This document shows, piece after piece, positions 1,479 through 27,888 of a DNA stretch of 36,243 nt. Both the position numbers and the translations under genes were made by a program. Position 1 is the first letter of the stretch. Each line of letters starts with the position of its first letter. Below the pieces are notes generated by a model. It had not been told where the DNA came from. It did not search any database and saw only the letters and a list, made by a program, of their open reading frames with translations. The DNA comes from a virus: positions 1-36,243 of IMG/VR virus record IMGVR_UViG_3300009503_000057; one strand, 5' to 3'.

Positions 1479-2846
1479 ATGAGGGCATACAGCTATTCTG
1501 TGGCCGAGTGGCCGGCGCTCAAGGCGGCCATGGAAGCAACCGAGCCATCCGTGCTATTCTGCGGCCCGTGGGGATCGGGAAAGACAAGGCTCCTCGCGGA
1601 GAAAGCTTATTGGCTCTGCGGCCGGTATCGGGGCTACAAGGCGGCACTCTGCCGCAAAGAGCTAAAGCGCTTGAAGCGGACAACATGGAAATGGCTGATC
1701 GATTTCGTGATTCCGCCCCATATCATGCGGAGATCGCGCTACAACAAGCAGGAGGTCGAGATTTTGCTCCCTAACGGTTCTGAGATCCATGGCTGCGGGC
1801 TTGACAATCCGCAGAAGCTCGCCTCTACCGAGTATGGTTTCATCGGCCTCGAGGAGGCGACAGAAGTGATCGACGAGATCACCTTCGCCTGGATTGAATC
1901 GAGGGCGAGACAGCCGGGCGTGCCGTTTCACCAAGTGATGTATGCCTGTAACGCAGGCCCACCGTCGCATTATTTATATCAGACCTATTATGTCAAAAAG
2001 CCCCGGGACGAGGCCGGAAGACCGCTCACGAGGCTTATTGAGGGCGAAACCCTCTGGCCGATGCTTCCTCCAAGCTACAAAAGGCGGCTGACAATGCTCA
2101 AGGGAAGATATCGGGAGAGGTTCCTCGAGAATAAGTGGATTGGCTATGAAGGGCTAATCTATGACGTCTTCAACCCGGGGAAGATGGTCATCCCGAGGTT
2201 CCGGATACCCCAGGATTGGGATTACGTGATCGGCATAGATTTCGGATTTCATTCGCCGTTCGTCTGTCAGTTTTGGGCCGTAAGCCCCGATGGGGTCTGG
2301 TATCTCGACAAGGAGATTTACCAAAGCCAAAGGACAGTAAATGCGCATGCCCGGACGATCATCGAGCTCATGGAGGAGCGAAATCTGATCCGAAGGGAAA
2401 AGGGAGGCGGCCAGGGTAAAGAGAAGAAACCCAGGGCCTATGTCGCTTACTCCGATCACGACTCGGAGGATCAAGCGACGCTCGAGGAGTATGGGATCTC
2501 AACCCTTCCTGCCGATAAGAATGTGAGTTCAGGCATCCAGGCCGTCTATAATGCCATGAAGGCTGGCCGAATTTTCTTTTTCGAGGATGCGCTCTGCGAG
2601 CGGGACCCCGGGCTCGAGGCGGCGGGCAAGCCGACCTGCACTATCGAAGAGATCCAGGGATATATTTGGAAGACAGATGCCAAGGAAGAGCCGCGGAAGG
2701 AGAATGACCACGGCTGCGATGCGATGCGCTATGCTTTTTATTCGCGGGAGCAGGCCCCAAAGCCAGGCTTTTTCGTCGTGCGAGGAGGAGAAGATGGCAA
2801 TACTCGACCGAATGCTTTCGATCTTTGGGCTGGCAAGGTCGGCTAA
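1479..2846 (+). CDS. Terminase large subunit (ATPase and nuclease)
   Basis: This is the DNA-packaging motor, 455 residues, typical of the family. A Walker A motif GPWGSGKT lies at residues 29-36 and a Walker B plus catalytic Glu at FIGLEEA (121-127). An ATPase coupling segment follows, with YACNAGPPSH at about 155-164. The RNase H-like nuclease domain shows its metal-binding acidic residues at VIGIDFG (D254), YSDHDSE (D327/D329) and NDHGCDAMRY (D410, D414). The protein would bind the portal vertex, translocate DNA using ATP and cut the concatemer. Its 3' end overlaps the portal start at 2794. No key residue seems missing. Confidence 0.95.
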   Translation: MRAYSYSVAEWPALKAAMEATEPSVLFCGPWGSGKTRLLAEKAYWLCGRYRGYKAALCRKELKRLKRTTWKWLIDFVIPPHIMRRSRYNKQEVEILLPNGSEIHGCGLDNPQKLASTEYGFIGLEEATEVIDEITFAWIESRARQPGVPFHQVMYACNAGPPSHYLYQTYYVKKPRDEAGRPLTRLIEGETLWPMLPPSYKRRLTMLKGRYRERFLENKWIGYEGLIYDVFNPGKMVIPRFRIPQDWDYVIGIDFGFHSPFVCQFWAVSPDGVWYLDKEIYQSQRTVNAHARTIIELMEERNLIRREKGGGQGKEKKPRAYVAYSDHDSEDQATLEEYGISTLPADKNVSSGIQAVYNAMKAGRIFFFEDALCERDPGLEAAGKPTCTIEEIQGYIWKTDAKEEPRKENDHGCDAMRYAFYSREQAPKPGFFVVRGGEDGNTRPNAFDLWAGKVG

Positions 2847-7757: not shown

Positions 7758-9068
7758 ATGGCAGAAGAAAAGAGAAAGGAGCTGACCATGGATCAGCTCA
7801 TAGGGATTATCCAGGAGGCAGTCAAGGGGCAGACCAAGGAGCAAATTGAGGCCCTAAAATCCGAAATTTTGGAGAAAAACAAGAAGGCAATCTTCCCCTC
7901 CGGGGATGAAAGGTTCCTCGAGAGCGAGGGGAAATCAGTTATTGATACAAGCTATTTCTTCAAAGATTACTCAGTCGGGGATGGGGGCCGGAACCGGATG
8001 CTAACTGGGCCCGAGCTCGCCCAGAAAATGAAGGCGGCAGGCGGCCCCTGGCTCAAACTCTCACCCGCTATGCAGAGGTTCGCGGACGGGTGCAGGGTGG
8101 GGTTTGACCCCATGAAATTGATCGCGCAGAAAATGGATCTGCACGACTATAACGAATTCATCAAGGCGGAGCAGAAGGACGTGGCAGCCGGACTCACCAC
8201 GACCGACGTGGGGGCGCTCGTGCCCATCGAGTTTCTGGCGACAGTCGTCGAATTTGCGACCGCTCAAAGCCAGATCATTCCGAAGGTTTGGCGAATTCCG
8301 ATGGGATCTCTTACCATGAGGATTCCAAAGCTCGTCCAGGCGGCTGGGAACTATTTCGGGGGGGTGAATCTCTACCATCCCAATGAGGCAGAACTCAAAA
8401 ACTCGACGAAGCCCTCGATGACCTACCTCACTTTCGAGGCGAAGAAGCTTATCGGCATTATCCCGCTTTCCGACGAGGTAATCGCCGACTCATCGATCAA
8501 TCTCATCAACTATCTCACGGGGCTTTTCGCCAGGGCCTTCCAGCATCAGATCGAGAACGAGATCATCAACGGCACAGGTGCGAGTGGCCAGATGCTCGGG
8601 ATTCTGAGCGATTCCGGGATCAACCTCGTGCCTCGGCAGACCGTCGGGACGGTGAAGTATGAGGATCTCATCAACCTGGAATCTGCCCTCGACGAAAATT
8701 TTTCCAACCTAACCTTCCTGTCGAGGAGAGCTACAGTTAATGTGCTCAGAAAGCAGAAAGATACGGTGGGCCAGCCCGTTTATCATGACGGGTTCACGAC
8801 ATTTCTTGGCGGAGCGATGACCCCGCAGCTACTGGGTTATCCCCTAATCAAGACGCGGAACGTTCCGGCCCTCGGCAACCAGGGCGACCTGATCCTCGGC
8901 GATCTCGGCTATTACATCTGGGCGGTTCGGCAGGATATGACAATCGACACCTCAAGGGATGCTCGCTTCTTCTATGACCAGACCGTTCTTCGGTTCGTCA
9001 TGAGGATGGATGGTCAGCCCGGCGTATCGATTGCCTTTGCCGCGCTTGATAACGTTCCAGAATCATAA
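7758..9068 (+). CDS. Major capsid protein (HK97 fold)
   Basis: The gene has a strong site AAAAAGGAGGG just upstream of ATG 7758. Residues 1-~50 form a charged helical delta-like region, normally removed by the prohead protease. The rest shows the HK97 capsid pattern: GALVPIEFLATVVEFA, SLTMRIPKL, EAKKLIGIIPLSDEVIADS with the spine helix LINYLTGLFARAFQHQIENEIINGTGASGQMLGIL, and a C-terminal AVRQDMTIDTSRDARFFYDQTVLRFVMRMDGQP. The length of 436 residues fits the family with its delta domain. It follows the protease directly, and a GC hairpin lies just after its stop codon. Confidence 0.95.
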   Translation: MAEEKRKELTMDQLIGIIQEAVKGQTKEQIEALKSEILEKNKKAIFPSGDERFLESEGKSVIDTSYFFKDYSVGDGGRNRMLTGPELAQKMKAAGGPWLKLSPAMQRFADGCRVGFDPMKLIAQKMDLHDYNEFIKAEQKDVAAGLTTTDVGALVPIEFLATVVEFATAQSQIIPKVWRIPMGSLTMRIPKLVQAAGNYFGGVNLYHPNEAELKNSTKPSMTYLTFEAKKLIGIIPLSDEVIADSSINLINYLTGLFARAFQHQIENEIINGTGASGQMLGILSDSGINLVPRQTVGTVKYEDLINLESALDENFSNLTFLSRRATVNVLRKQKDTVGQPVYHDGFTTFLGGAMTPQLLGYPLIKTRNVPALGNQGDLILGDLGYYIWAVRQDMTIDTSRDARFFYDQTVLRFVMRMDGQPGVSIAFAALDNVPES

Positions 9069-9130: not shown

Positions 9131-10249
9131 TTGCTTAAAGAACCTAAGCTCGTGCTCGTGGAATTCATCGATCCTGTCCTGCGGCGGACGAGGGGGGAAA
9201 TTTCAGTTGATGGAAAATTGATCCGAGGCGACTGGTTCGATGAGGAAAAAGCCATAAAGGGCGAGAAAAAAGGGAAATGGAAAACAATTGGGGATGCCCC
9301 AGCCCAAAAATTCGAAACGAAAATAATTCCGGCGGATTCGGATTTTGCAAAGGTGCAACAGAAGCCCGACCTTAAGGATCCTCATCCGGCTCCGGGGGCG
9401 AAGAGAGTTTTTAAGACCCGGGTCGCATGGATTCAGGATCAGCTCTGGCGGGGCGGAGCGGAGATCAGCGGGAATTTCGTGGCCGAAATAGGGAGAAATT
9501 GCGGATTCGATATAGCTATGCTCACCCGAGACGTGCCTGCGAAGATAATCCACGACGAGATAGTGAAGGCGGATCTCGCCGTTCTAAACAATCTCTGGGC
9601 TTTTTCTTCTGAGCAGATTATGGCGATCCTCAAGGGGATCTATTCCGATGGGATACCATATGTCAAATACGAACACGACCACAGGGAGATTTCGAGGCCT
9701 GAATTCTCGATTCCTCTTTTTCGGCGGTCGAAGCTTAACGTTTTCCTCTCGCCCATGCATCTGCGGAATTACCAGAAAGCCCTCGGCTGCGACGGGATAG
9801 CCCTGCCGCTGGCGATCGATACCGAAATTTTCAAGCCGGTTGAGGGGGTCGAGCGAAAAGCGGGATGGGCGCTCGTATCGAATGTCAGAAATTTCAAATC
9901 CTGGCAAAAACTTAACCAGTATATCCAAGAGCATCCCGAGATCACATTCGTCATATTGGGGAGCGATCCTCCGGTCCAGGGCCAGAATATTAGAGTGAGA
10001 CCGATGGTGCCGTTCGATCAGATGCCGGCCCTCTATTCTGAGCATGAATTCCTGGTCCATATACTCGATGGCTATGGGGCTGGGGAGAGGGTCGTATTCG
10101 AGGCGGCACTCTGCGGCTGTAAGATCATCATGAACGAAAATGTGGGCCATATGAGCTGGGAGATTGATCTCGGAGATACCGAAAGGCTTAGACAGTGGTT
10201 AGACGATGCGCCGTTCGAATTTTGGCGAAGGCTCGAGGCGATAGTATGA
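9131..10249 (+). CDS. GT4-like glycosyltransferase (GT-B fold) with N-terminal extension
   Basis: TTG at 9131 is taken as the start, with CGGAGAGAT upstream; no ATG fits better. Residues ~93-372 look like a GT-B glycosyltransferase: RVAWIQDQLWRGGAEISG at the start, the C-terminal Rossmann half with VSNVRNFKSWQKL, VILGSDPP, then ILDGYGAGERVVFEAALCG and IIMNENVG, the region that holds the donor sugar nucleotide in GT4 enzymes. Residues 1-~85 (LVEFIDPVLRRTRGEISVDG and a Lys-rich stretch) are not part of the glycosyltransferase and are of unknown origin. It is the first gene of an eight-gene sugar-modification cassette between capsid and connector genes. The acceptor is unknown; a virion protein is likely by context. 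Confidence 0.8.
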   Translation: MLKEPKLVLVEFIDPVLRRTRGEISVDGKLIRGDWFDEEKAIKGEKKGKWKTIGDAPAQKFETKIIPADSDFAKVQQKPDLKDPHPAPGAKRVFKTRVAWIQDQLWRGGAEISGNFVAEIGRNCGFDIAMLTRDVPAKIIHDEIVKADLAVLNNLWAFSSEQIMAILKGIYSDGIPYVKYEHDHREISRPEFSIPLFRRSKLNVFLSPMHLRNYQKALGCDGIALPLAIDTEIFKPVEGVERKAGWALVSNVRNFKSWQKLNQYIQEHPEITFVILGSDPPVQGQNIRVRPMVPFDQMPALYSEHEFLVHILDGYGAGERVVFEAALCGCKIIMNENVGHMSWEIDLGDTERLRQWLDDAPFEFWRRLEAIV

Positions 10250-10866
10250 GGATGCGGCAATACTGGGAGGAGAGATATAAGGCTTACGGCAGGTTCACGG
10301 TGGGCCGAATGGGAATGACCCCTAACAGTTTTTTGCACTCGACTCAGAAGGCCCATACGATCATACGGAGGGAAATTAACCCGCTGATAAAAGGGCGAAG
10401 GGTTCTTGATTTTGGCTGCGGCTATGGCCGGATGGCCCCGGTGCTCTCCGAAGCGGCGGCTTTCGTCTACGGGGTCGATATTTCCGAGCAGGCCATAGAC
10501 CAAGCCAGGCTTTTCTTCTCGGCTGCCATTTACAAGCTCTATAACGGGGCCGAGATCCCCTTTGGGGATGGTTTCTTCGGGGCTGTTTTCTGCTGGACCG
10601 TTCTCCAGCACATCCCGGGAGAAGAGATCAGCGGGATCGCCCAGGAGATCGACCGGGTGCTTTCCCAAGGCGGGATCCTTGCACTATTTGAAAATACAAC
10701 ACCTGCCCTCGGCAATAAACCGCATGTTTGGTCTAGAAGCCCGGCAGATTATGCAGCCCTTTTCCCGGGGTTCCTGGCCCTAACCATCAAACCTATCCCA
10801 GGGATCGATGGGTCAACCGAATCCCATTCGCTCATGATTTTCCAGAAGAGGGGAAGCCAATGCTAA
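10246..10866 (+). CDS. Class I SAM-dependent methyltransferase
   Basis: ATG 10246 overlaps the preceding stop (ATGA), which is preferred to the longer frame beginning at 10195. The 206-residue protein has the SAM-binding motif I VLDFGCGYGRM (53-63), an acidic ribose contact in VYGVDIS (about 74-80) and the motif IV region AVFCWTVLQHIP (113-124), typical of methyltransferase 11/25-type enzymes. The motif alone does not tell the acceptor. Placed between glycosyltransferase genes, it most likely O-methylates a sugar or a sugar precursor. Confidence 0.85.
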   Translation: MRMRQYWEERYKAYGRFTVGRMGMTPNSFLHSTQKAHTIIRREINPLIKGRRVLDFGCGYGRMAPVLSEAAAFVYGVDISEQAIDQARLFFSAAIYKLYNGAEIPFGDGFFGAVFCWTVLQHIPGEEISGIAQEIDRVLSQGGILALFENTTPALGNKPHVWSRSPADYAALFPGFLALTIKPIPGIDGSTESHSLMIFQKRGSQC

Positions 10867-11147
10867 AGGGATATGAAGATAAAGAGCTTCGGATCTATCA
10901 ACATAAAGGGGGGAAGGTTGAGCCGATCCCCGAGGGGATGCACTTCGAAATTGCCTGGAAGATCCACGGGAGGCGGATCTTGAGGAAGCTTTTGAGGGAG
11001 GCGGAGCGGGAAGGGAAACCATATGAAAGAAAAGGGAATCTCATAAGGCTTGCGAGCGGGGAAGTTTACCGAATTGCAGATGATGGCTCCTGGCGCAGGG
11101 AGCGGCCTGAGGCTTTCACGCTTCAGGAGCCGACAGGGGATGGATAA
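10860..11147 (+). CDS. Hypothetical protein, 95 aa
   Basis: The frame overlaps the upstream methyltransferase by 7 bases and the next gene by one base (TAATG), which supports it as a real cistron. The product is basic and short: IAWKIHGRRILRKLLREAEREGKPY followed by LIRLASGEVYRIADDGSW, which could form a small helix plus beta-hairpin domain. I recognise no family. It may be an accessory to the surrounding sugar-modifying enzymes. Confidence 0.65.
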   Translation: MLKGYEDKELRIYQHKGGKVEPIPEGMHFEIAWKIHGRRILRKLLREAEREGKPYERKGNLIRLASGEVYRIADDGSWRRERPEAFTLQEPTGDG

Positions 11148-11944
11148 TGGTTCTAATTATCAGCACTTTCGGGCCCATGAATCAGTACCGGGATAAGGAA
11201 ATGATGAAGAAAACCCTCAACGGATTCCTCCGGTCGCTCGATCGGCAGACATCGAATGATTTCCGGTGTTTCATCGCCTGCCATAACATTCCAGATTGGG
11301 TGCCAGAATACCCATGGCTCGAATGGTGTTCGGTCATGATAGATAAAGAATGCTCTTTGACTCCGGAATGGGTTGAGCTTCCCAAAGATGCCATCGACCC
11401 CGGAAAACAAGAGATCAAGCCATTCGACTGCCCCATGACCGATATGAGCCGTAAAACCTATCACGCCGCGATCTGCGCCGGCCGGTGGGCATACAGGCAG
11501 GGTTTTCGATCGGCGTGGATGCTCCGGGTCGATAGCGATGATTTGCTCGCCAAGGACCTGGTAGAGCAGATCCTCGAGGCCGACCGAAGCGGATATGAGG
11601 CTATATTTTCCCGCCTGGCCTACATGGTCGATATGCAGAGCGGCGAGGTCGGCATCCACAAATATCCATATTCTCTCACCGTGAATGCGATCAAAATAAT
11701 TCTTGATGGCCCGAAAATCGACCGCTGGTTTTACCTCTGCCGGGATCATACGAAATTTGCAAGCGACGTGGCGCGTGATCACATCCGGGCACTCGAGCTG
11801 CCCTGGCTTCTCTGCATAGCGACGAATAGCGGAAACCACATCTCTGGGAGGCCGAGGATCGAAGATCATCCACACACAAAGAAAATAATTTTGAGAAATT
11901 ACCTCGTCGATCTATATGGGCTCGACTGGCTGATGGAGATGTAA
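11147..11944 (+). CDS. GT-A (GT2-like) glycosyltransferase
   Basis: The 265-residue product starts with LIISTFGPMNQ, a variant of the GT-A N-terminal strand, and has a DxD-type metal/nucleotide motif RVDSDDLLAKDLVEQIL (127-143) preceded by CAGRWAYRQGFRSAWML. This arrangement is typical of rhamnosyltransferase-like GT2 proteins found in phage and polysaccharide loci. No membrane segment is present, so it should act on soluble or virion substrates in the cytoplasm. It is coupled by a TAATG overlap to the preceding gene. Confidence 0.75.
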   Translation: MVLIISTFGPMNQYRDKEMMKKTLNGFLRSLDRQTSNDFRCFIACHNIPDWVPEYPWLEWCSVMIDKECSLTPEWVELPKDAIDPGKQEIKPFDCPMTDMSRKTYHAAICAGRWAYRQGFRSAWMLRVDSDDLLAKDLVEQILEADRSGYEAIFSRLAYMVDMQSGEVGIHKYPYSLTVNAIKIILDGPKIDRWFYLCRDHTKFASDVARDHIRALELPWLLCIATNSGNHISGRPRIEDHPHTKKIILRNYLVDLYGLDWLMEM

Positions 11945-11945
11945 A

Positions 11946-12605
11946 ATGGATCTAAGGCTTTACGAGAAATATCTCGCCGAAATACGAATGATCGCAAATA
12001 AAAACAAGCAGATCGCATGCCATGCGACCTTAGACCAATCCTTTCATGCAGCCCTAATCGCCAACCCAAATCTCATCATGGAGCTTGGAACAGGCGCCAA
12101 AGGATTAAGAACGCAGGCTATGTGCCGAGCCGCGGCACTCTGTGATGCATGGCTGGTGAGCGTGGATATTAAAGATTGTCTTGGCTGCGGAAATGCTTGG
12201 TATGGCAAATGGATCTTCATTCAAGCCGAGGCGCGGGAATTCGGGAGAATATGGCCCCAGTGGGCAGGTAGGAAATTCGGCGAATCGCGGGAAATTGATG
12301 TGTTATTCGTGGACCTCGATGAGCTCTATGAAACCACGCTCGAGACCTGGCAAATTTGGAACCCTTATCTGGCCCCGAAAGCTACGCTCATGTTCAGGTG
12401 CACAAACCTGCAGAAAAAACTTTACTATCCAGATGGAACTTCGACGATGCTCGGCTGGGATAACAAGCGGGGAGTGATCAGGGTCTTAGAGGACGCGCTG
12501 GGGCTCAAGTTCGATGAGACCAGGGAATACACCGGGGAGCAGAACGGATGGGCGATAAAACATTATCCGTGGGGCGGGGGCCTCAGCATTCTGAAGAGGA
12601 TATGA
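11946..12605 (+). CDS. Class I methyltransferase (MTase_24/cephalosporin-hydroxylase-like)
   Basis: The 219-residue protein has LIMELGTGAKGLRTQA (43-58), the Glu-Gly-Gly SAM-binding loop, then WLVSVDIKDC (69-78) for the acidic ribose contact. DVLFVDLDELYETTLETW (118-135) resembles the LFIDGDHSYE motif of methyltransferase-24-type O-methyltransferases that modify sugars. It lies 1 base after the preceding glycosyltransferase and overlaps the next gene by ATGA. Substrate unknown; a sugar methyltransferase is the favoured reading. Confidence 0.78.
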   Translation: MDLRLYEKYLAEIRMIANKNKQIACHATLDQSFHAALIANPNLIMELGTGAKGLRTQAMCRAAALCDAWLVSVDIKDCLGCGNAWYGKWIFIQAEAREFGRIWPQWAGRKFGESREIDVLFVDLDELYETTLETWQIWNPYLAPKATLMFRCTNLQKKLYYPDGTSTMLGWDNKRGVIRVLEDALGLKFDETREYTGEQNGWAIKHYPWGGGLSILKRI

Positions 12606-13735
12606 TTCCGCTTTTCTGGCCGCCAGAGATAGACATGGATAGGCTCAAATTGGAGCTCTTCGATCCGGATCAAGGAACGTTCCAGGGCCGATGGTGGGGG
12701 CAGGGGCCCAAGGTCAATATGTTCGAGAAGGAATTCGGCGAGAGATTCGGCTTCAAGCACAGCGTCATGACGAATAGCGGCACCATGGCCCTCTGGATAG
12801 CCTATGTCCTGGCGGGAATAGGAAAAGGGGATGAGGTGATTGTTCCCGTGCTCACCTGCACGGCAACATGCCATCCGCTTCTCTGGCTTGGAGCGAAGAT
12901 CATCTTCGCCGATATCGATCCAGAGACGCTAACTCTTGACCCATCTGATTTCGAATCTCGGATCACGGAAAAGACGAAAGCCGTGGTGCCGGTCCACCTC
13001 GGGGGTCTCGTCGCCCATGCGGAAGAGATAAAAAACATAGCCCGCCGGGCGGGAAAGATTAGGATCATCGAAGATGCCTGCCAGGCCCTCGGGGCAAAAA
13101 GTGTGGGTTATGGCGATTTTACCTGCTTCTCCTTCCAGGCGATCAAAGCCCTGACCACGGAAGACGGTGGGATGCTGGTAACCAGATGTAAGCGGGATTA
13201 CTCCAGGGCGAAGAGGCTTAGATGGTTTGCCATCGACCGGGAGGCAAAATCCCGGGCCGGATGGCAGGCATGGACGAGGCGAGGGATAACCTTCGAGCAG
13301 GAAGAGCCTGGTCTCAAAGCCCAGCCCACGGACATCGATGCCTCCGTAGGGTTTGCCAGCATGAGTCGGTTCGGCCCCAACCAGGCGCACCGCGCGAGGA
13401 TCGCCCAAATCTACCGGCAAGAGCTCGGAAACCTGCGGGCGGTAAAGCTACTGAGGGAAGGGGATACTTCGAACTGGCTCTTCATGGTCAAGGTCGAGGA
13501 TAGAGATGATTTTGCCCGATTCCTATGGAAAAACGGGATTGAAACGAATGTGGCCCATTTGCGGAATGACATTTTTAAGGTTTTCGGGGGCCGGAGGCTC
13601 GATCTCCCAGGGATGCGGCAGGTTGAGAAGAAATATATTTGCCTGCCAATCAATACGAAAATGTCCGAATCGGATGCCTACTACATCGCAGGAGCAATAA
13701 TCAATTGGCATCTCAAGAGGTTCCCGGATTCTTAG
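12602..13735 (+). CDS. DegT/DnrJ/EryC1/StrS-family PLP aminotransferase
   Basis: ATG 12602 (ATGA overlap) is used rather than the open frame from 12548. The 377-residue product has the family pattern: GRWWGQGPKVNMFEKEFGERFG, TNSGTMALWIA (57-67), VIVPVLTCTATCHPLLWLGA, FADIDPETLTLDP, VVPVHLGG, then IIEDACQALGA with D158, and CFSFQAIKALTTEDGG with the PLP lysine K182. These enzymes transaminate keto-sugar nucleotides to amino sugars, or act on cyclitols. No 4,6-dehydratase or epimerase is in the window, so the substrate probably comes from the host. The protein suggests the cassette builds or installs an amino sugar. Confidence 0.9.
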   Translation: MIPLFWPPEIDMDRLKLELFDPDQGTFQGRWWGQGPKVNMFEKEFGERFGFKHSVMTNSGTMALWIAYVLAGIGKGDEVIVPVLTCTATCHPLLWLGAKIIFADIDPETLTLDPSDFESRITEKTKAVVPVHLGGLVAHAEEIKNIARRAGKIRIIEDACQALGAKSVGYGDFTCFSFQAIKALTTEDGGMLVTRCKRDYSRAKRLRWFAIDREAKSRAGWQAWTRRGITFEQEEPGLKAQPTDIDASVGFASMSRFGPNQAHRARIAQIYRQELGNLRAVKLLREGDTSNWLFMVKVEDRDDFARFLWKNGIETNVAHLRNDIFKVFGGRRLDLPGMRQVEKKYICLPINTKMSESDAYYIAGAIINWHLKRFPDS

Positions 13736-13745
13736 ATATTTGGCT

Positions 13746-14486
13746 ATGGTGGATATAATCATCACAACCTGGAATCGGGTCGATCTTCTTCGCCGAACGC
13801 TCGAATCTCTATGGGCAAGGGCAAAAGATGGGCTTCCTTATAGGCTTTGGATCCACGACGACTGCTCGGAGGATGAGACTCCTCGCTACCTTCAGGGCCT
13901 TAAGGATAGATCGATTGCCTATATCGCCCTATCGAAGAAGAGGGCGGGGGTCGTGGCGGGATTCAATATGCTGTGGAACATGGTGGATTACTATGATTCT
14001 TTCTGGGAGGAGATGCCTTATCTCTGCTATCTGCAGGACGATGTAGAGTTCGAGGAGGATAATTGGCTCACTACATTGATCAGGGCTTACGAGGAACTTA
14101 GCGAGAAGGAATCGATAGGATTCTTCACTGGATACAACGCGCCGGAGCATCCGGTCGACTCCTGGCTCAATTGGGGAGAGAGGAGGGTTTTCCTCAAATT
14201 TTCGACTACGGCGACTAATCTTGTAGGGACAAAGGCTTTCTGGAGATCTATCGGGTGGATTCCGAGGCTCAATCCCGACGGATCGGAGCGAGGCTTTCCG
14301 CACAAAAACAGGGGAAGCCACATCGATGTTTACCTCACGGGATGCGCTAGCGGAAGCAGGTTCGCTGCCAAGGCAACTGCTCCGAATTCCAGCTACCTAC
14401 AGGGGAAAAAGGTCCTGGTCGTGCCAGATCTTATCAGGCACAACGGGGCGCCGGAAATAAGATCGACGTGGAGGCGGAGAAATTGA
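13746..14486 (+). CDS. GT2-family glycosyltransferase
   Basis: ATG 13746 is chosen; the frame could also begin at TTG 13740. The 246-residue product starts MVDIIITTWNRVDLLRRTLESL, the standard GT2 nucleotide-binding strand, has IHDDCSEDET (36-45) and YLQDDVEF (95-102) as the acidic metal/donor motif. The C-terminal half has HIDVYLTGCASG and a VVPDLIRHNG segment. No transmembrane helix is present. It overlaps the next gene by 19 bases. Confidence 0.85.
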   Translation: MVDIIITTWNRVDLLRRTLESLWARAKDGLPYRLWIHDDCSEDETPRYLQGLKDRSIAYIALSKKRAGVVAGFNMLWNMVDYYDSFWEEMPYLCYLQDDVEFEEDNWLTTLIRAYEELSEKESIGFFTGYNAPEHPVDSWLNWGERRVFLKFSTTATNLVGTKAFWRSIGWIPRLNPDGSERGFPHKNRGSHIDVYLTGCASGSRFAAKATAPNSSYLQGKKVLVVPDLIRHNGAPEIRSTWRRRN

Positions 14487-15529
14487 AGGCCATAGCATAT
14501 TTTGCCAATGGAATCGGGAACTTAATCATGATGATGCCGGCGCTCCAGGCCATAGCATCCCTTACCGAAACCGGAAAGATCGATGTCTGCCTGGGGGACT
14601 GGCAAGATAGCCGGAAGCCCGCAATCATGGAAATCCTTAAGGCCTGGGATGTGGTTGATCGCATCATCGAGTGGCCCCGGGATGGGGTCGATCCGAGGAT
14701 CTATCAGCTCTGGTTCTACTCTCCGCATGGGGCAGGATGCGATGTCGTTAATCTTTTCCGATCGAGGATGAACTATAGGCCGGTTCCCAGGCCGGCATGG
14801 AAGGAGAGCCTTATCCATGAAGTCGATCATTACATGGAGATTGCCTATTCGATGGGTTACATGGGGCCGATGCCGGAAGTTCGCTTTCCCTTGCCCGAGG
14901 GGGGGCCGTCGCTTGGCAATCTGCCGAGGCCGAGGATCGTTCTCTGCAACGGCTATTTCAGGGTCGCTACGGGTTATTGGGATAAAAAAGGATGGCCCCA
15001 TTTTAGGGCCTATATTCGCGCTGCGAGGGGGTTTTTCCGAGGGTCAATGGTTGGCATAGGCGCAGAAGGAGAATGGGCCGAAAACGAGGCTCTGGACGCG
15101 AATTTTGCGGGCAAACTTTCGATACTCGAGACGGCGAAGGTCATAAGCCAGGCCGACCTCGTTGTTTCGACCGATACGGGCAATATGCACATCGCCGACA
15201 TTCTGGGCGTTCCATTGATTGCCCTTTTCGGACCAACGCTTGTATCGAAGAACGGCCCAAGGAATCGGAGGGCCGTGGTTCTCGCATCGGGCGCCGAATG
15301 CGCTCCGTGCCAGGATACGGCCCGCTTCATGGGATGCCGCGATTACGTCTGTATGCGGTCGATCACGGTAGGGGATGTCATGGCTGTGACAAGGGGGCTG
15401 CTCAACAGCTCCAATTATAAATATGGAGATATAAGGAGAAAAGAAAATGGCACTGACGGATGGAGCGAAAAATTACATGCTGGGGCAGTTCGGAACGAAC
15501 AAAGCCCTGTATCTCTCCCTGCACACTAA
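14468..15529 (+). CDS. GT9-like glycosyltransferase (heptosyltransferase type)
   Basis: GTG 14468 overlaps the preceding gene. The product has the GT9 pattern: NGIGNLIMMMPALQAI (14-29) at the N-terminus, and QADLVVSTDTGNMHIADILG (228-247) followed by PLIALFGPT. After that comes the Cys-rich ECAPCQDTARFMGC segment common in this family. Heptosyltransferase-type enzymes add sugars to lipopolysaccharide core, but phage relatives can have other acceptors. The family-like part ends near residue 318; the last ~35 residues are read out of frame across the ribosome-binding site and first 83 bases of the next gene. Confidence 0.83.
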   Translation: MEAEKLKAIAYFANGIGNLIMMMPALQAIASLTETGKIDVCLGDWQDSRKPAIMEILKAWDVVDRIIEWPRDGVDPRIYQLWFYSPHGAGCDVVNLFRSRMNYRPVPRPAWKESLIHEVDHYMEIAYSMGYMGPMPEVRFPLPEGGPSLGNLPRPRIVLCNGYFRVATGYWDKKGWPHFRAYIRAARGFFRGSMVGIGAEGEWAENEALDANFAGKLSILETAKVISQADLVVSTDTGNMHIADILGVPLIALFGPTLVSKNGPRNRRAVVLASGAECAPCQDTARFMGCRDYVCMRSITVGDVMAVTRGLLNSSNYKYGDIRRKENGTDGWSEKLHAGAVRNEQSPVSLPAH

Positions 15530-15803
15530 CGACCCGGGATCGAACGGAGACAATGAAGTGAGTGGGGGGAGCCCGGCCTACGCCAGAAAATCGGTAACCT
15601 GGAATACGCCCTCGGGAGGGGCTATGACGGCGTCGAATCAGCCGGTCTTTGATGTGCCCGGGGGGACCACGGTCAAGTATGTGGGGATATGGGATGCCCA
15701 ATCGGGCGGAAATTTCATGGGATCGGCAGACGTGACCGACGAGACATTCGCCAATCAGGGAACCTATACCGTAACGAGCGCTCAGATCGACCTGAACGCA
15801 TAA
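15447..15803 (+). CDS. Small phage virion protein (decoration/tail-fibre-like)
   Basis: The start has AAGGAGAAAAG upstream and overlaps the glycosyltransferase tail by 83 bases. The 118-residue protein matches a widespread phage structural pattern: YLSLHTNDPG, NEVSGGSPAYARKSVTW, FDVPGGTTVKYVGIWDAQSGG and a QGTYTVTSAQIDL end. Relatives are often labelled tail fibre or capsid decoration protein, and the beta-rich composition agrees with either. Lying next to the large repetitive fibre gene, it may form part of the same virion appendage. Confidence 0.7.
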   Translation: MALTDGAKNYMLGQFGTNKALYLSLHTNDPGSNGDNEVSGGSPAYARKSVTWNTPSGGAMTASNQPVFDVPGGTTVKYVGIWDAQSGGNFMGSADVTDETFANQGTYTVTSAQIDLNA

Positions 15804-15813
15804 AAGGCATTAA

Positions 15814-17817
15814 ATGGCAACGAGAATCTATCTGCCCTCTAGTGGCAATCCGCCTGTAACGCCTTCGACCTGGAACTTTCCGAACCAGATCAATCCGCTT
15901 ACTTTCGCGGGCGTTACGACCAGGATTGGTTCGGCCCTAACGACAAAAACCGAAGCGACGGGCACTGTAAGCCCGACTTTTCGGGCGATGCTCCGCTACG
16001 TGATCGGTCCTCTCGCTGCTCAGAGTATCTCAGGCACGGTCAACCTGGTTATGCGGGCCTACGAGAGCAATACGGGGGCGAATGCCACTATGGCGATAGC
16101 AGTGAAAATAATCAAACCCGACGGTTCGGATCGTGCCGTGCTCCTTGGCTATATCGCCTCGGATTCGGCCACCAGTCCCTATGAATTTACAACCACGCTT
16201 TCGAGCCGTCGGGCCTACGATGCCTCCGAGACAAGGCCAATACCTCTGACTTCACAATCGGCTCAGGCCGGAGACTACCTCGTTATCGAGATAGGTTTTA
16301 GATCCGCGACCACCACGAACCGAAACATTCAGTTGCGATATGGCGACGCGGCAAGTTCTGACCTGGCAGATGGGGAAGGAGAAACTAACGACTTCAACCC
16401 CTGGTGTGAATTTTCCCAGAACATAGCCTGGTATGAGCAGAAGTCCGGAAGCTTTACCCTATCCAGCCCGAGCAAGGCAAGCTCGGCAGCGAAAAAGGGT
16501 GCAAAAGCTTCTGTGACGCAATCGATCGCCATCGGGAGCATGGTTCTTGGGCTTCTCGGCGCCTTCGGGGGAATGTCTCTTACCGCACCGGCGAGTTTTG
16601 CCGCCACGGGCGTAAAATATGAGGCCGGCGAGGAGCATTACGGATCGTTTGCGATTTCATCCGGATCGCCCGCTGCCGCCATCGAGGGCCTGAAGGGAGC
16701 AAAGGAGGGGTTGCTTCTTGAGGCAGGGACAGCAGAAGCATCTGCCGGCATAAAATCGGTCAAGGCGACGGCATCCGTGGCCTCTCATGCGGCGGCGACT
16801 GCGATTGCGACTAAATGGACTTCCGGTTCCGCAGAAACGACCGCCACTGCCAGCCTCGCATATCAGGGAAGAAAGCAATCAGGTTCCGAATTTTCAGTCA
16901 GCGAGCCATCTCCGGATTTAGACGCAGCAGCCAAGAAAAACGGCAGCGCAGGGGCTCAGGTAGCCGAGGCCGCAACCTTCGAAAGCCTAGGAGTCAAAGG
17001 GGCCAGAGGCCAGCCGGGCATTGCGGAGCCAGGCTCCGCTCAAGTCGATGGCCAAAAATTAGCGGCAGGAGCAGGCCTGTTCGAAGCCGGCCCGGGGATT
17101 CAGGCCGCGGCTGTCACAGGCAAATCCGCCGAAGTATCTGCCACTTCTGGCGTTCAGTTCGATGCCCAGGCAAAGAAGCAGAGCCTAATTTTCGTTTCGG
17201 TAGCCTCTGGGGCACCATCCGCCCAAGCCGAAGGGCAAAAGGTAGCATCTCATGGATTTTCGGTAGCGGAGGTTTGCTCTCTCAGCTTAGGAGCCAAGAA
17301 GCAGGCCCGAAGCGACACTCTGGATCTGAGGATCGGCTGTTCGGTCAGCGCGACCGGAACATCGGCAGAAGCCAGAGGCGGCTCGCTCAGCATTTCGGAG
17401 GAGGTCCAAGCAGAAGCAGGAGGCATCAAGGCTTCTGGCGAAACGGCGCAGTTCGAATGCGCCGAAGCGGCCTCCGCATCTGGCAGAAAAGCAGCAGATT
17501 CTGAGATTGCGGCTTCGGCAGAGGTGGGGAGCCAAATCTTCGGCCAAAAGAGGGCCCGCGGGGAAAGCTGCATTGCCGCAGGCGAGGCAGTCTCCTTTAC
17601 CGGAGCTCCGTCTTTCGAATTCTACGCTGGGAGCCTTACGCTTGCCGCTCAGGCCGCTTTCTCGGCCGCAGGCAAGGCAAGCGTTCTAAAAGATGTTAGC
17701 AGAAGAGATTTATTAGCCGCCTGGGCCGATGAAGAAGGCAAATTCCTGGTTTCTCGTCATAACCGCCCGCTCGTAGGCCGCATCCACTCGGTTGGGCTCG
17801 TGGCAAAGGAGGAATGA
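15814..17817 (+). CDS. Repetitive fibre protein, 667 aa
   Basis: Residues 1-~208 form a beta-rich N-terminal domain ([38 protein letters not shown]) that could anchor it to the virion. Residues ~210-625 are a long Ala/Ser/Gly/Thr-rich array of about twenty units. Each has a hydrophobic beta-like stretch followed by G-x-K, seen for example at 266-268, 312-314, 352-354, 413-415, 474-476, 537-539, 557-559 and 577-579. The spacing is mostly 20-22 residues. Residues 627-667 form a different C-terminal cap. The array suggests a fibrous beta-repeat shaft. It follows the glycosyltransferase cassette and precedes the connector genes, so a head or neck fibre is as likely as a tail fibre. Confidence 0.75.
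16441..17688 (+). repeat. Coding repeats: ~20 units of about 20-22 residues with G-x-K signature
   Basis: The translated sequence shows units such as [40 protein letters not shown] and [20 protein letters not shown]. The aligned Lys positions (268, 294, 314, 334, 354, 374, 395, 415, 437, 455, 476, 496, 539, 559, 579, 621) give a period near 60-66 bases. At DNA level the units have diverged, so expansion is not recent and the repeat is maintained as protein structure. Confidence 0.7.
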
Positions 17818-17818
17818 A

Positions 17819-18385
17819 ATGGCAGTGATCACTCTAACCGATGTCAAAGATGAACTCGAAATCCCGGCATCCGAGACAAGTTTCGACAGCCGCCTGGATC
17901 TTTTGATCGAAGATGTGATCGCGGCAGCCGAGAGCGAGATGCAAGCGAAGATCGAACCCGTGATCGACGAGGTCGTTTATCTCGATGGTGGGGTAAGCAG
18001 GCTTTATCTTCCCCATCTGAATGTGGGGAACATAACTATATGGTCGGATTATGATGAAGAATGGGATGAGGCATCCCTAGTTGATGAGGAAGATTACTCT
18101 ATCGATTCCGCCAGGGGCCTGGTGACGATGAAGGATGGAATGAAGTTTGCACCTGGCCTCAAGACGGTCAAGGTGAAATATGATGGCGGCTATACGGCCC
18201 CCTCGCTTCCGAAGGATCTCAAGCGAGCACTTATCCGGCAGATCGTTTACCTCTGGAGGCGGAGGAAGGATATTGGCCTCTCTTCCGTGACCTACCCGGA
18301 TGGGAGCGTATCGAAATATGCGGTCGGTGAATGGCTTCCCGAGGTTAAGAGCGTGCTTGATAGATATGGGAGGATATTTTTTTGA
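17819..18385 (+). CDS. Head-tail connector protein (gp6-like)
   Basis: ATG 17819 has AAAGGAGG at 17805-17812; the longer frame from 17792 lacks such a site. The 188-residue protein starts [13 protein letters not shown] with [21 protein letters not shown], the helical signature of HK97 gp6-like connectors that form a ring under the portal. [25 protein letters not shown] near the C-terminus is also typical. The gene ends in a T7 run, and the following start codon overlaps its stop. Confidence 0.85.
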
Positions 18386-24132: not shown

Positions 24133-27100
24133 ATGGCATTAACGCTTGACGCCACATTAGCTTCAAGCCAGGAACTTTTAAGCCGGCATCCAATAGTCGA
24201 GATTATATCGAGTCAATTCATTGATGATATTCCATTCGATGGCTCATTTTTAACTTCAGAGACGAGAGATGAGAAGCGGCCCAATGCCATCATGCATAGC
24301 TCGGGGAGAATATTTCTTGCTTATATTTTTGACTCCGGGCAGGGTTTCTCTGATACCAGACCTAATTCGATCAAGTTTGCTTATACGGATACGGAGCGCA
24401 GGGCCTTATCGTTCAGCACCTATCAGCTCGAAAGCGGATGGGGCCCGATACTCGATCTATCCTTATGCGAGCTCGCAAATGGCAATATCGGGATCATTTT
24501 TATAACCACCTACCTCTCATATCGAAAACTTATGTATCTGATCGTGGACCAAGAGGCCAATGTGATCAAAGGTGCCACTCAGATCGCCCAGCATACGACA
24601 AGCGATGAAATAATCGACATGCCTTGGGTAGCCCGGGCCGGCAATGGGAACTACGTTCTCGTTTATCGCTGGTATGATCTCGATCCGATAACTCATTCGC
24701 TACTCATGAGGACATCATCGGATTTCCAATCATGGTCCTCGGCATCGGCAATAACGCTTTCTGGTCTCGATCCGACTTATCCGAAATATAACCCTTCTCT
24801 GATCAGGCTGACAAATAACGACCTCTGGCTCTGGTTCGAATATCGAGAGGATGTAAGGGCGGGCGCCGAATTAACGAATATTTATTATGTCGTATCTTCG
24901 GATCATGGGGCCACCTGGTCGGCCCCCACCAAAATTACGAATTATGATACCTTCTCCCCGGTCGCAAAGCATCCCGTCGCCGTGCAAAAATTCTCGGATC
25001 AGATGCACCTCATCTTTGACGAGTTGAGGGCCGCGCTTCATATCGATAAAGATACCCCCAGTATATGCGCTTCGGAATTTCATCCCAGCTCCATAGGCTA
25101 TGATGCGGTAAATGGCAAGCTCTATGCCCTCGGCATCTACTGTGGCTCCGGCTATAAATACCTTCAGTGCGTTATTAAGGTGGATGTCGCGACCTGGCAG
25201 ATCGAGGACTGCTGGAATTGCTCGACGGTGCCGGCCTTCCCTGCCCCTTATTGTTCTGGAAGCTATCATGTCTGGTATGGAAAGGATCATATAGATGGGC
25301 ATCTTGTTCCCGTAGGAACAGCTAGCGATCCTTACATTGCTTCCGTATCGCTTTTAGACGGCGAGGCTAATTCGATCAGAGATTTCCATTTTAAATCAAA
25401 TCCAACTCTTGGGATCACTGCCAATGTTTCTGGAATCAATTTAGAAAGTTCTACATATCTCGGAAAGACTTGGGTTGACGCAGAAAATCAAAGGCTATGG
25501 GTGCTCTTTTTTAAAACTTATTACTATTCCTCCAAGATTTTAGTCGGATATATCGATCTTACGGAGAGCGGCCCCATTTATAATTGGAATGAAGTTGTCA
25601 ATGATTCGGATGTAACCGAAGTGAATACTTATGCCCTTTTTTTCGATGGCGAGCTGATTGTTCTTCCTGATTGGGATTATATTATTGTTTCAATGGGCCA
25701 TGTATCTAATGGATCTTACTGGGTCGGCCGGCTGAAAGTTTATCATTATTCAACAGGGGCATTAATCAAGGATTTTTATACCTCTGCCAACCCAGGCTTT
25801 CCATATCATGGTTTGCGCCGAGTCTGCTTCTATGAGAATAAGATTTATGGAGGCTTTATCTATGATGGCGCAATTGCTGGCGAGGAGGATAAGCGCGGTC
25901 TCTGCATTATCAATCTTGCGGATGATACCATCACATATTCGAGGCCAGATTTTGCGAGCGTTGATGATTATAAAATTGGGGCAATATCATCTATGGGTGA
26001 TGGCAGGCTTATCATGAATTGCTACACCTATGGCATTGCCATTTATGATACGGACGGCGGCACTTGGACGCTTTTTAGTAACGACACTCTGCCCGGACTT
26101 ACTCCGACTGGCGGGGAGGAATATATGGATCAATGCGCGCCTTATTATGATGCCGAAAGCGGATTGATTTTTGCAGGTCAGGGATCAAACATGGCCGATT
26201 GGTCGGGCCTCATCATGTTCTCCGAATATGGATATTTCAGAAGAAGCCAATTCATGATTGGAGCAAATTCTGGGGGGTGGACATTCGGGGACCAAAACCC
26301 ACTCGTTCAGGGCTACAATGATTATGAACTCATTGCGGCTTTAGATCCAGAGGATCGAACGATCTATGCTTTTTGGACCCACCAGCCTGCCGATGAATAT
26401 TCGATCAAGTGGGATAAGGAGAATAGCGAATTCAATCTCCACAAATACCTCGTAAAAGGAAAGGAAATCGTTGTTAAAAGAAATATCGCCGGAGACCCAG
26501 CATCGCTCAGCTTCGAGGTCTCCCATGGCCATCTTTTCGATCCGAATAATCTATCATCGCTCTGGTCGATCTGTCTTAAGAAATTTCGGAAGATCAATCT
26601 CAGATTTGGGGAAAAAATAGATGGGGTGGACTATTGGCAGCAGGCTGGGGTTTTCATAATCCGGGATACGAAGCTTCACTTTGAGCGGGGAACCTATCCA
26701 ACGATGCAGGTCCTCGCCGAGGATAAAATGTCGCTATGGGAGCTCGCCGAAGTAACGGCGACGCAGTTCTATGAGACGACGCCAAAACTCATTCTCCAGG
26801 ATATTCTGCAGAGATATGCGAATCTGGGACCTTCGGAATACAACATTCCTGATTTCGACGATTCGATCACGCTCTACCATCAGTGGGTTGAAACTAAGAT
26901 AAAAGAGATCCTTGAGCAGGTGTGCCACAGGTTCCGCTACTTCCCGAGGATCGATGTAAACGGGGTCGTCACGGCCAGGAAAATTAGCGATGCCAATCCA
27001 GTGGATCATACCTATTACGGAAAGAGCTGGCTTCTTTCCTTCACGCCGGACGACAGCTTCTCCGACTACACTAACCGCGTAACCGTGATCGGAGAGGCCA

Positions 27101-27888
27101 GAGATTACATCGAGGTTCTTTATGCTGAGGAACCGGTCGCAACCCGCACCGGGACTGTGGGCTGGTGGGGGCATAAAAAAACCCTGACGGTCTATTATTC
27201 GGAGGATGGGTCAAGGCGTTGCCGCTATCCAAGGCTAGAAGTTATCGAATCGGTGCGATCATTTAATTTCCGCTTGGGCGGCGGGGGAGAATCAATTACA
27301 TATGTAGATCCAGAGGAAAAATACTGCATCATCACGATTGAAATGCCCAACCTCGTTTTTGTTCTGATTGCAGCAATTGCCGCTCTAATTTCTCTGATGG
27401 TTGCCTGCTCCGGCTGCGACAAGGCCTTCTATTGCGGCATTTGCTTTGTGATGCAATCAGGCCTCTTTGGAACCATTCTCAATATCATAGCAAGCGTGGC
27501 GAATTATCAGTACAGAATCCATGCCAGGCCGGTTGGAAAGGTAAGGCAATCCTATCAAGCGGCGGCTAACGATGAAGAGCTTCAGACACTTATCGGAACG
27601 GTAGTCGAACGCAGGATCACCGATCCGCTCTGCTATTCGGTCGATCACTGCCGGTTCGTCGCCAATTTCGAGCTTTTAATCGCGCAACTCCAGCGCCAAA
27701 GAATAAAGTTCACAAAGATCGCCCATTTGCAAGATGAAGAAGGCGATACGATCTCGATCATTCATCCTTATTCGGAGCAAAGGATTTCGGTGTTCATAAC
27801 CGATATAACTCGACGGTTCATGCTCCCAGCGAATCCAGGATCGGATGAAGGATATTTCCTGGATGACATAGAAGGCTGGAGGCTATGA
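24133..27888 (+). CDS. Tail hub protein with N-terminal beta-propeller-like region
   Basis: Residues 1-~750 are beta-rich and look like a sialidase-type propeller; a clear Asp-box, SSDHGATW, lies at 255-262, with further FxxYxxD and DGxL repeats. From about 755 (KGKEIVVKRNIAGDPASLSFEV) the sequence changes to a hub domain of the gpD / Gp37-like kind: QQAGVFIIRDTKLHF, LILQDILQRYANL, FRYFPRIDVNGVVTARK and SDYTNRVTVIGE. Two hydrophobic segments at about 1074-1091 and 1103-1122 enclose CSGC and CGIC (Cys 1092, 1095, 1101, 1104). The hub should cap the tail tip; the propeller suggests glycan binding at the host surface. The hydrophobic pair could reach the host membrane. Confidence 0.8.
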   Translation: MALTLDATLASSQELLSRHPIVEIISSQFIDDIPFDGSFLTSETRDEKRPNAIMHSSGRIFLAYIFDSGQGFSDTRPNSIKFAYTDTERRALSFSTYQLESGWGPILDLSLCELANGNIGIIFITTYLSYRKLMYLIVDQEANVIKGATQIAQHTTSDEIIDMPWVARAGNGNYVLVYRWYDLDPITHSLLMRTSSDFQSWSSASAITLSGLDPTYPKYNPSLIRLTNNDLWLWFEYREDVRAGAELTNIYYVVSSDHGATWSAPTKITNYDTFSPVAKHPVAVQKFSDQMHLIFDELRAALHIDKDTPSICASEFHPSSIGYDAVNGKLYALGIYCGSGYKYLQCVIKVDVATWQIEDCWNCSTVPAFPAPYCSGSYHVWYGKDHIDGHLVPVGTASDPYIASVSLLDGEANSIRDFHFKSNPTLGITANVSGINLESSTYLGKTWVDAENQRLWVLFFKTYYYSSKILVGYIDLTESGPIYNWNEVVNDSDVTEVNTYALFFDGELIVLPDWDYIIVSMGHVSNGSYWVGRLKVYHYSTGALIKDFYTSANPGFPYHGLRRVCFYENKIYGGFIYDGAIAGEEDKRGLCIINLADDTITYSRPDFASVDDYKIGAISSMGDGRLIMNCYTYGIAIYDTDGGTWTLFSNDTLPGLTPTGGEEYMDQCAPYYDAESGLIFAGQGSNMADWSGLIMFSEYGYFRRSQFMIGANSGGWTFGDQNPLVQGYNDYELIAALDPEDRTIYAFWTHQPADEYSIKWDKENSEFNLHKYLVKGKEIVVKRNIAGDPASLSFEVSHGHLFDPNNLSSLWSICLKKFRKINLRFGEKIDGVDYWQQAGVFIIRDTKLHFERGTYPTMQVLAEDKMSLWELAEVTATQFYETTPKLILQDILQRYANLGPSEYNIPDFDDSITLYHQWVETKIKEILEQVCHRFRYFPRIDVNGVVTARKISDANPVDHTYYGKSWLLSFTPDDSFSDYTNRVTVIGEARDYIEVLYAEEPVATRTGTVGWWGHKKTLTVYYSEDGSRRCRYPRLEVIESVRSFNFRLGGGGESITYVDPEEKYCIITIEMPNLVFVLIAAIAALISLMVACSGCDKAFYCGICFVMQSGLFGTILNIIASVANYQYRIHARPVGKVRQSYQAAANDEELQTLIGTVVERRITDPLCYSVDHCRFVANFELLIAQLQRQRIKFTKIAHLQDEEGDTISIIHPYSEQRISVFITDITRRFMLPANPGSDEGYFLDDIEGWRL

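Follow-up and report, generated by a model that had tools for sequence, protein, structure and literature searches.

The chlorovirus PBCV-1 assembles an elaborate glycan on its capsid protein Vp54 with glycosyltransferases (GTs) and methyltransferases of its own, without the secretory path of the host. Among phages, virion glycosylation of the mycobacteriophages Che8, Corndog and Myrna was reportedly described by Freeman et al. in Cell Host Microbe in 2023. Few cultured phages have proven virion glycosylation. For the three named, three further papers describe phage-encoded capsid glycosylation (PMC12363180, PMC11256854, PMC12619734). Here we analyze an eight-gene cassette of putative sugar-modification enzymes in the IMG/VR record IMGVR_UViG_3300009503_000057. 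This linear record of 36,243 bases, which we refer to as the window, may hold only part of a genome. The cassette is probably a capsid glycosylation operon that would use nucleotide sugars of the host to build an elaborate glycan.

The known systems resemble this locus only in part. With Che8, Corndog and Myrna it shares phage-encoded GTs, which here would serve virion glycosylation, and with the chloroviruses virus-encoded GTs and methyltransferases, which here would build a capsid glycan. Chloroviruses are eukaryotic nucleocytoplasmic large DNA viruses with a jelly-roll capsid protein, whereas the window comes from a phage with an HK97-type major capsid protein (MCP). In Che8 the MCP gene is followed directly by the adaptor, and the three GT genes occupy 56.2-58.7 kb, close to the right end; here, in contrast, the GTs are found inside the head block between MCP and connector, with up to four of them accompanied by two methyltransferases and a DegT enzyme, and one GT carrying a domain of the virion block. 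Che8 gp108-gp110 gave no significant blastp match to the cassette proteins (best E 0.25) and an hhalign probability of about 1% or less against the GT4, GT2a and GT9 profiles. As far as sequence comparison can tell, the cassette works like Che8 virion glycosylation but stands outside the Che8 type, with unrelated enzymes, another gene place and a larger enzyme set. The bacterial Gtf3/GtfC enzymes, which are soluble GT-B proteins for O-glycosylation of serine-rich adhesins, share the fold of GT4, but belong to a cell-surface adhesin pathway and reach only 11-14% identity. Serotype conversion of the GtrABC type uses a membrane flippase, a polyprenyl-phosphate GT and a membrane GT, and no such families occur among the eight proteins. 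A tblastn search of isolated phages found no relative of GT4, GT9, GT2a or GT2b in the collection, and only distant relatives of DegT.

The eight-gene cassette between MCP and connector is real: all eight open reading frames (ORFs) are present on the + strand at 9131-15529, in the order GT4, methyltransferase, 95-aa ORF, GT-A, methyltransferase, DegT aminotransferase, GT2 and GT9. With their neighbors, the features are:

7758..9068, + strand: HK97-type MCP, the proposed acceptor (phrog_10, 5e-60)
9131..9406, + strand: small N-terminal domain of GT4 (hhalign 90-95%; AlphaFold2 model)
9419..10249, + strand: GT4-like GT-B glycosyltransferase domain, upstream bookend (PF13524, 2.3e-5; Foldseek E 2e-9)
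10246..10866, + strand: ORF2, S-adenosylmethionine (SAM)-dependent methyltransferase, Methyltransf_11 (PF08241, 2.8e-18)
10860..11147, + strand: ORF3, 95 aa, without family
11147..11944, + strand: ORF4 or GT2a, GT-A-fold glycosyltransferase (model, Foldseek, DSDD motif)
11946..12605, + strand: ORF5, methyltransferase, Methyltransf_24 (PF13578, 4.4e-6)
12602..13735, + strand: ORF6, DegT/DnrJ-type sugar aminotransferase (PF01041, 1e-74)
13746..14486, + strand: ORF7 or GT2b, GT2 glycosyltransferase (Glycos_transf_2, PF00535, 1.2e-14)
14468..15529, + strand: ORF8 or GT9, heptosyltransferase-like, downstream bookend (Glyco_transf_9, PF01075, 5e-18)
15447..15803, + strand: gp80-like fibre protein (PF23140/phrog_240)
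15814..17817, + strand: 667-aa Ala/Ser/Gly/Lys-rich protein adjoining gp80, without family match
17792..18385, + strand: head-tail adaptor, the connector (phrog_442, 2e-21)

To follow the cassette into related phages, viral contigs were searched with the MCP, complemented by a GT4 search, which yielded more than 100 loci (L numbers below). These two queries were chosen because a DegT query found zero matches in the viral contigs. Loci were collapsed into clusters at 95% MCP nucleotide identity, and a cluster was taken as comparable at an MCP identity of at least 44% with at least 1.2 kb downstream; the relatives' contigs are often partial, and their genes were called by a simple ORF script. 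GT4 adjoins the MCP gene in 30/30 comparable clusters, 25 of which were retrieved by the MCP alone and were therefore not selected for GT4. A single 'no' in this count (L015) was set aside as a short match, 77 residues long, to another MCP lineage. GT4 and GT9 are both present in each of the 17 clusters extending to the connector (13 of them retrieved by the MCP alone). L023 and L050 share the full order GT4-methyltransferase-GT2a-Methyltransf_24-DegT-GT2b-GT9-connector, and L022 and L044 share it up to DegT, at protein identities of 36-59%. The same arrangement in independent contigs excludes a chance constellation. The first-pass annotation had proposed such a comparison of synteny; it thus finds both the MCP-GT4 adjacency and the GT4/GT9 bookends conserved.

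The bookends also diverge in step with the capsid gene. Pairwise identities of GT4 and GT9 correlate with those of the MCP at r = 0.78 and r = 0.81 (0/500 permutations), next to 0.74 for the protease and 0.73 for the major tail protein. Mapped on the MCP tree, a quick tree with moderate supports, cassette content requires 3 changes, against 10.6 after shuffling, and the DegT type falls into two separate clades. An earlier idea of rampant swapping in the cassette middle was toned down accordingly, as content mostly tracks the MCP clade. In L089 a GT4-GT9 pair even lies between an MCP of another family (phrog_138, with one gene between) and an adaptor, Ad2. On these comparisons the cassette is a conserved trait of an uncultured siphophage-type group, co-inherited with the MCP, and probably belongs to the group's core.

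A second line of evidence comes from the N-terminus of GT4. In the AlphaFold2 model, residues 7-52 fold separately, and residues 55-92 form a predicted disordered linker to the GT-B part. In L007, L036, L042 and L085 a domain of this kind is encoded by its own ORF, placed between MCP and GT4. Two tandem copies precede the GT4 domain in the ORFs L009:11346, L079:678 and L080:6241. Pfam and PHROGs offer no named family for it. A sister clade without the GTs, whose MCP is about 30% identical, encodes the MCP, one further gene and then a protein of 90-117 aa, and pairwise profile comparison of this protein with the small domain gave hhalign probabilities of 90-95% (E 2e-6 to 4e-8). Eight column-shuffled controls reached 0.0-0.1% and a reversed profile 0.3%; two narrower subset profiles were weak alone (9.6% and 1.3%). 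Given this profile homology to the stand-alone protein of the GT-less sisters, it appears that a small protein of the virion block became fused to a glycosyltransferase. The domain may tether GT4 to the head.

The enzyme assignments of the first-pass annotation were borne out by Pfam scans and, for GT4 and GT2a, by models and Foldseek, as was the position in the head operon, with the MCP upstream (phrog_10) and the adaptor downstream (phrog_442). Family scans are strong for DegT and the first methyltransferase and clear for GT2b and GT9. The Methyltransf_24 match lies narrowly above its curated cut-off and the Glyco_trans_1_2 match of GT4 narrowly below, while GT2a and the 95-aa ORF have no Pfam family. 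The latter has no convincing homologue in related cassettes (best tblastn E 0.08), and a candidate in L048 was dropped at that value. DegT matches PF01041 over its length and carries the pyridoxal phosphate lysine in FSFQAIKALTTEDGG, aligned with 4zwv, as expected of this aminotransferase family; perosamine synthase and ArnB are among its relatives in the PDB. Likely starts were revised to 10246 (ORF2), 12602 (ORF6), about 13746 (ORF7) and 14468 or 14483 (ORF8). Neighboring genes overlap by 1-7 bases at 5/7 junctions, with the ORF2 start overlapping the GT4 end as ATGA, which fits a translationally coupled operon.

AlphaFold models were built with alignments of relatives and compared by Foldseek. 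GT4 is modeled as a GT-B enzyme (predicted local distance difference test, pLDDT, of 85) and matches known glycosyltransferases at 2e-9; the aforementioned Gtf3/GtfC are among its top fold matches. The CAZy family GT4 is a tentative assignment for it: the GT-B fold is confirmed, but PF13524 stays below the cut-off and the EX7E motif is incomplete. GT2a is modeled with a GT-A fold (pLDDT 91) and matches known glycosyltransferases at 3e-6, with heparosan synthase/WrtF among the matches. Its DSDD motif is invariant in the alignment of relatives, consistent with metal binding.

Between and beside the bookends, the repertoire varies. Other clades carry GT2, GT17, GT-D-like and RGP-type transferases, hexapeptide acyltransferases and methyltransferases, and also a radical-SAM/B12 enzyme, an epimerase/dehydratase and a PIG-L-like possible deacetylase. 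The minimal cassette consists of GT4, one methyltransferase-like or GT-A-like gene (motif by eye) and GT9. The radical-SAM/B12-binding enzyme lies within the cassette of L048 (11296-12585), where C-methylation or rearrangement of a sugar is possible. Cluster c13 (L087:11924-12502 and relatives) contains an unnamed 192-aa gene with polysaccharide deacetylase-like motifs, HIDDFSD and HGFKH, recognized by eye. Further, GT9 and GT4 domains are fused in one ORF of 627-632 aa in L103 (8924-10816) and L105 (1239-3119), in L103 near the terminase and a head-tail adaptor-like gene. This fusion points to the bookend enzymes acting jointly.

How could such a pathway work? The cassette would be expressed together with the head genes, as its position suggests, and would glycosylate the capsid late. 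The virion-block domain would bring GT4 to the head or to assembly intermediates, where the enzyme might add an early sugar to the capsid. Going by their families, the GT-A, GT2 and GT9 enzymes would lengthen the chain, DegT would turn a keto-sugar nucleotide of the host into an amino sugar, and the two methyltransferases would cap or decorate the sugars. The shell would then bear a methylated oligosaccharide that contains an amino sugar and is made with no lipid carrier. This glycan type, already proposed from the first look at the sequence, is a fair inference for the window but does not extend beyond it, as DegT is present in 5/23 records searched. Similarly, the expected need for a host precursor holds for the window and most relatives, while the cassettes of some relatives include an epimerase/dehydratase. 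The latter is absent from the window and found in 2/23 records, with the L040 copy inside the cassette, and NTP_transferase (nucleotidyltransferase) genes occur in 0/23; most members should therefore need host nucleotide sugars.

Virion glycosylation, as put forward by the first-pass annotation, is thus the leading reading, given the MCP linkage conserved in the group and the virion-block domain of GT4. A more specific version, in which glycosylation is coupled to assembly and defines the clade, GT4 is carried by an old virion-block domain and the glycan type differs by lineage, is put forward only tentatively. Several observations speak against capsid glycosylation. The structure search does not separate protein from DNA GT-B glucosyltransferases, T4 α-glucosyltransferase (AGT) being among the GT4 matches, and EX7E in GT4 is reduced to the second glutamate in the alignment. 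In addition, the C-terminal serine of the MCP is kept in the GT-less sisters; a GT-specific acceptor motif at this end was rejected, since these sisters also end in Ser.

The glycan might instead sit mainly on another virion protein, such as a head or tail fibre, a decoration protein or the tail tube, which we consider unlikely. The head operon position would suit such an acceptor, the gp80-like and 667-aa proteins come after GT9 in the window, and in mycobacteriophages the tail tube, besides the capsid, has been reported to be glycosylated (PMC12619734). The conserved neighbor, however, is the MCP, and GT4 also occurs downstream of the different MCP family of L089. The fibre directly downstream, first suggested as an acceptor, loses ground in the relatives: GT9 abuts the connector in most of them, and homologues of gp80 and the 667-aa protein are absent from all that bear the GTs. 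Together these two findings make the pair look like an insertion after GT9 in the window lineage. In L023, L050, L022 and L044, specifically, neither this pair nor the 95-aa ORF has a homologue. Among the relatives, a gp80-like protein (PF23140, phrog_240) is found only in the window and the GT-less L052/L053, and a Gordonia phage has its gp80-like gene with tail and lysis genes. GT9 and gp80 share 83 bases (window 15447-15529), and the GT9 frame is about 40 codons longer than in relatives, consistent with an insertion of the fibre genes after GT9. The 667-aa protein is probably part of the same fibre as gp80.

It is quite improbable that the enzymes modify the host surface, be it lipopolysaccharide or capsule, in order to block superinfection or free progeny. 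Although GT9 is heptosyltransferase-like and DegT enzymes are typical of O-antigen pathways, the eight proteins have no clear membrane segment by hydropathy, and they include neither a lipid-linked initiating transferase nor a flippase or GtrAB partner. The gene place is moreover fixed to the MCP, with which the cassette co-evolves, and GT4 bears the virion-block domain.

Hypermodification of phage DNA by the glycosyltransferases is very improbable. The resemblance of GT4 to T4 α-glucosyltransferase, among others, would agree with it, as would C5 cytosine methylases in 4/23 records and thymidylate-synthase family members (PF00303) in 3/21 (two GT-bearing, one GT-less). Most GT-bearing records, which may be fragments, nevertheless lack a base hydroxymethylase family, and Tet/JBP (PF12851) was detected in none, a weak point as the control gave no signal. 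The methyltransferases, like DegT, are of the kind found in sugar pathways, and the location between MCP and connector also argues against DNA as the target. A cargo (moron) cluster gained as a block without virion role is just as improbable: middle gene content differs between clades and the adjacent fibre pair looks inserted, but the bookends are universal in the clade and inherited together with the MCP, and the cassette has the same G+C as the head genes (0.529 vs 0.532).

Beyond the cassette, the window encodes terminase, portal, head morphogenesis protein, protease, MCP, head-tail adaptor, tail genes, endolysin and holin, a siphophage-type module order of a phage of bacteria. The endolysin combines GH108 and PG_binding_3, and on the basis of GH108 the host is predicted to be a bacterium with peptidoglycan. 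A search of genome contigs with MCP and GT4 recovered neither a prophage nor a host. The portal ORF as called overlaps the terminase by 260 bases (window 2587-2846); its true start is probably later, because alignments with relatives begin only near residue 68. A 1251-aa tail protein (window 24133-27888) has a weak BNR-repeat match and is possibly a sialidase-like or receptor-binding part.

In capsid glycosylation as favored here, an environmental phage group would maintain a glycan pathway of several enzymes at one fixed position of the head operon, evolving with the capsid gene. If true, a phage lineage would have glycosylated capsids as a standing trait, and genomes would allow tests of lineage-specific head glycans with roles in adhesion, masking or stability. 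The fused domain of GT4 would offer a direct mechanism, open to testing, by which a glycosyltransferase is aimed at the capsid.

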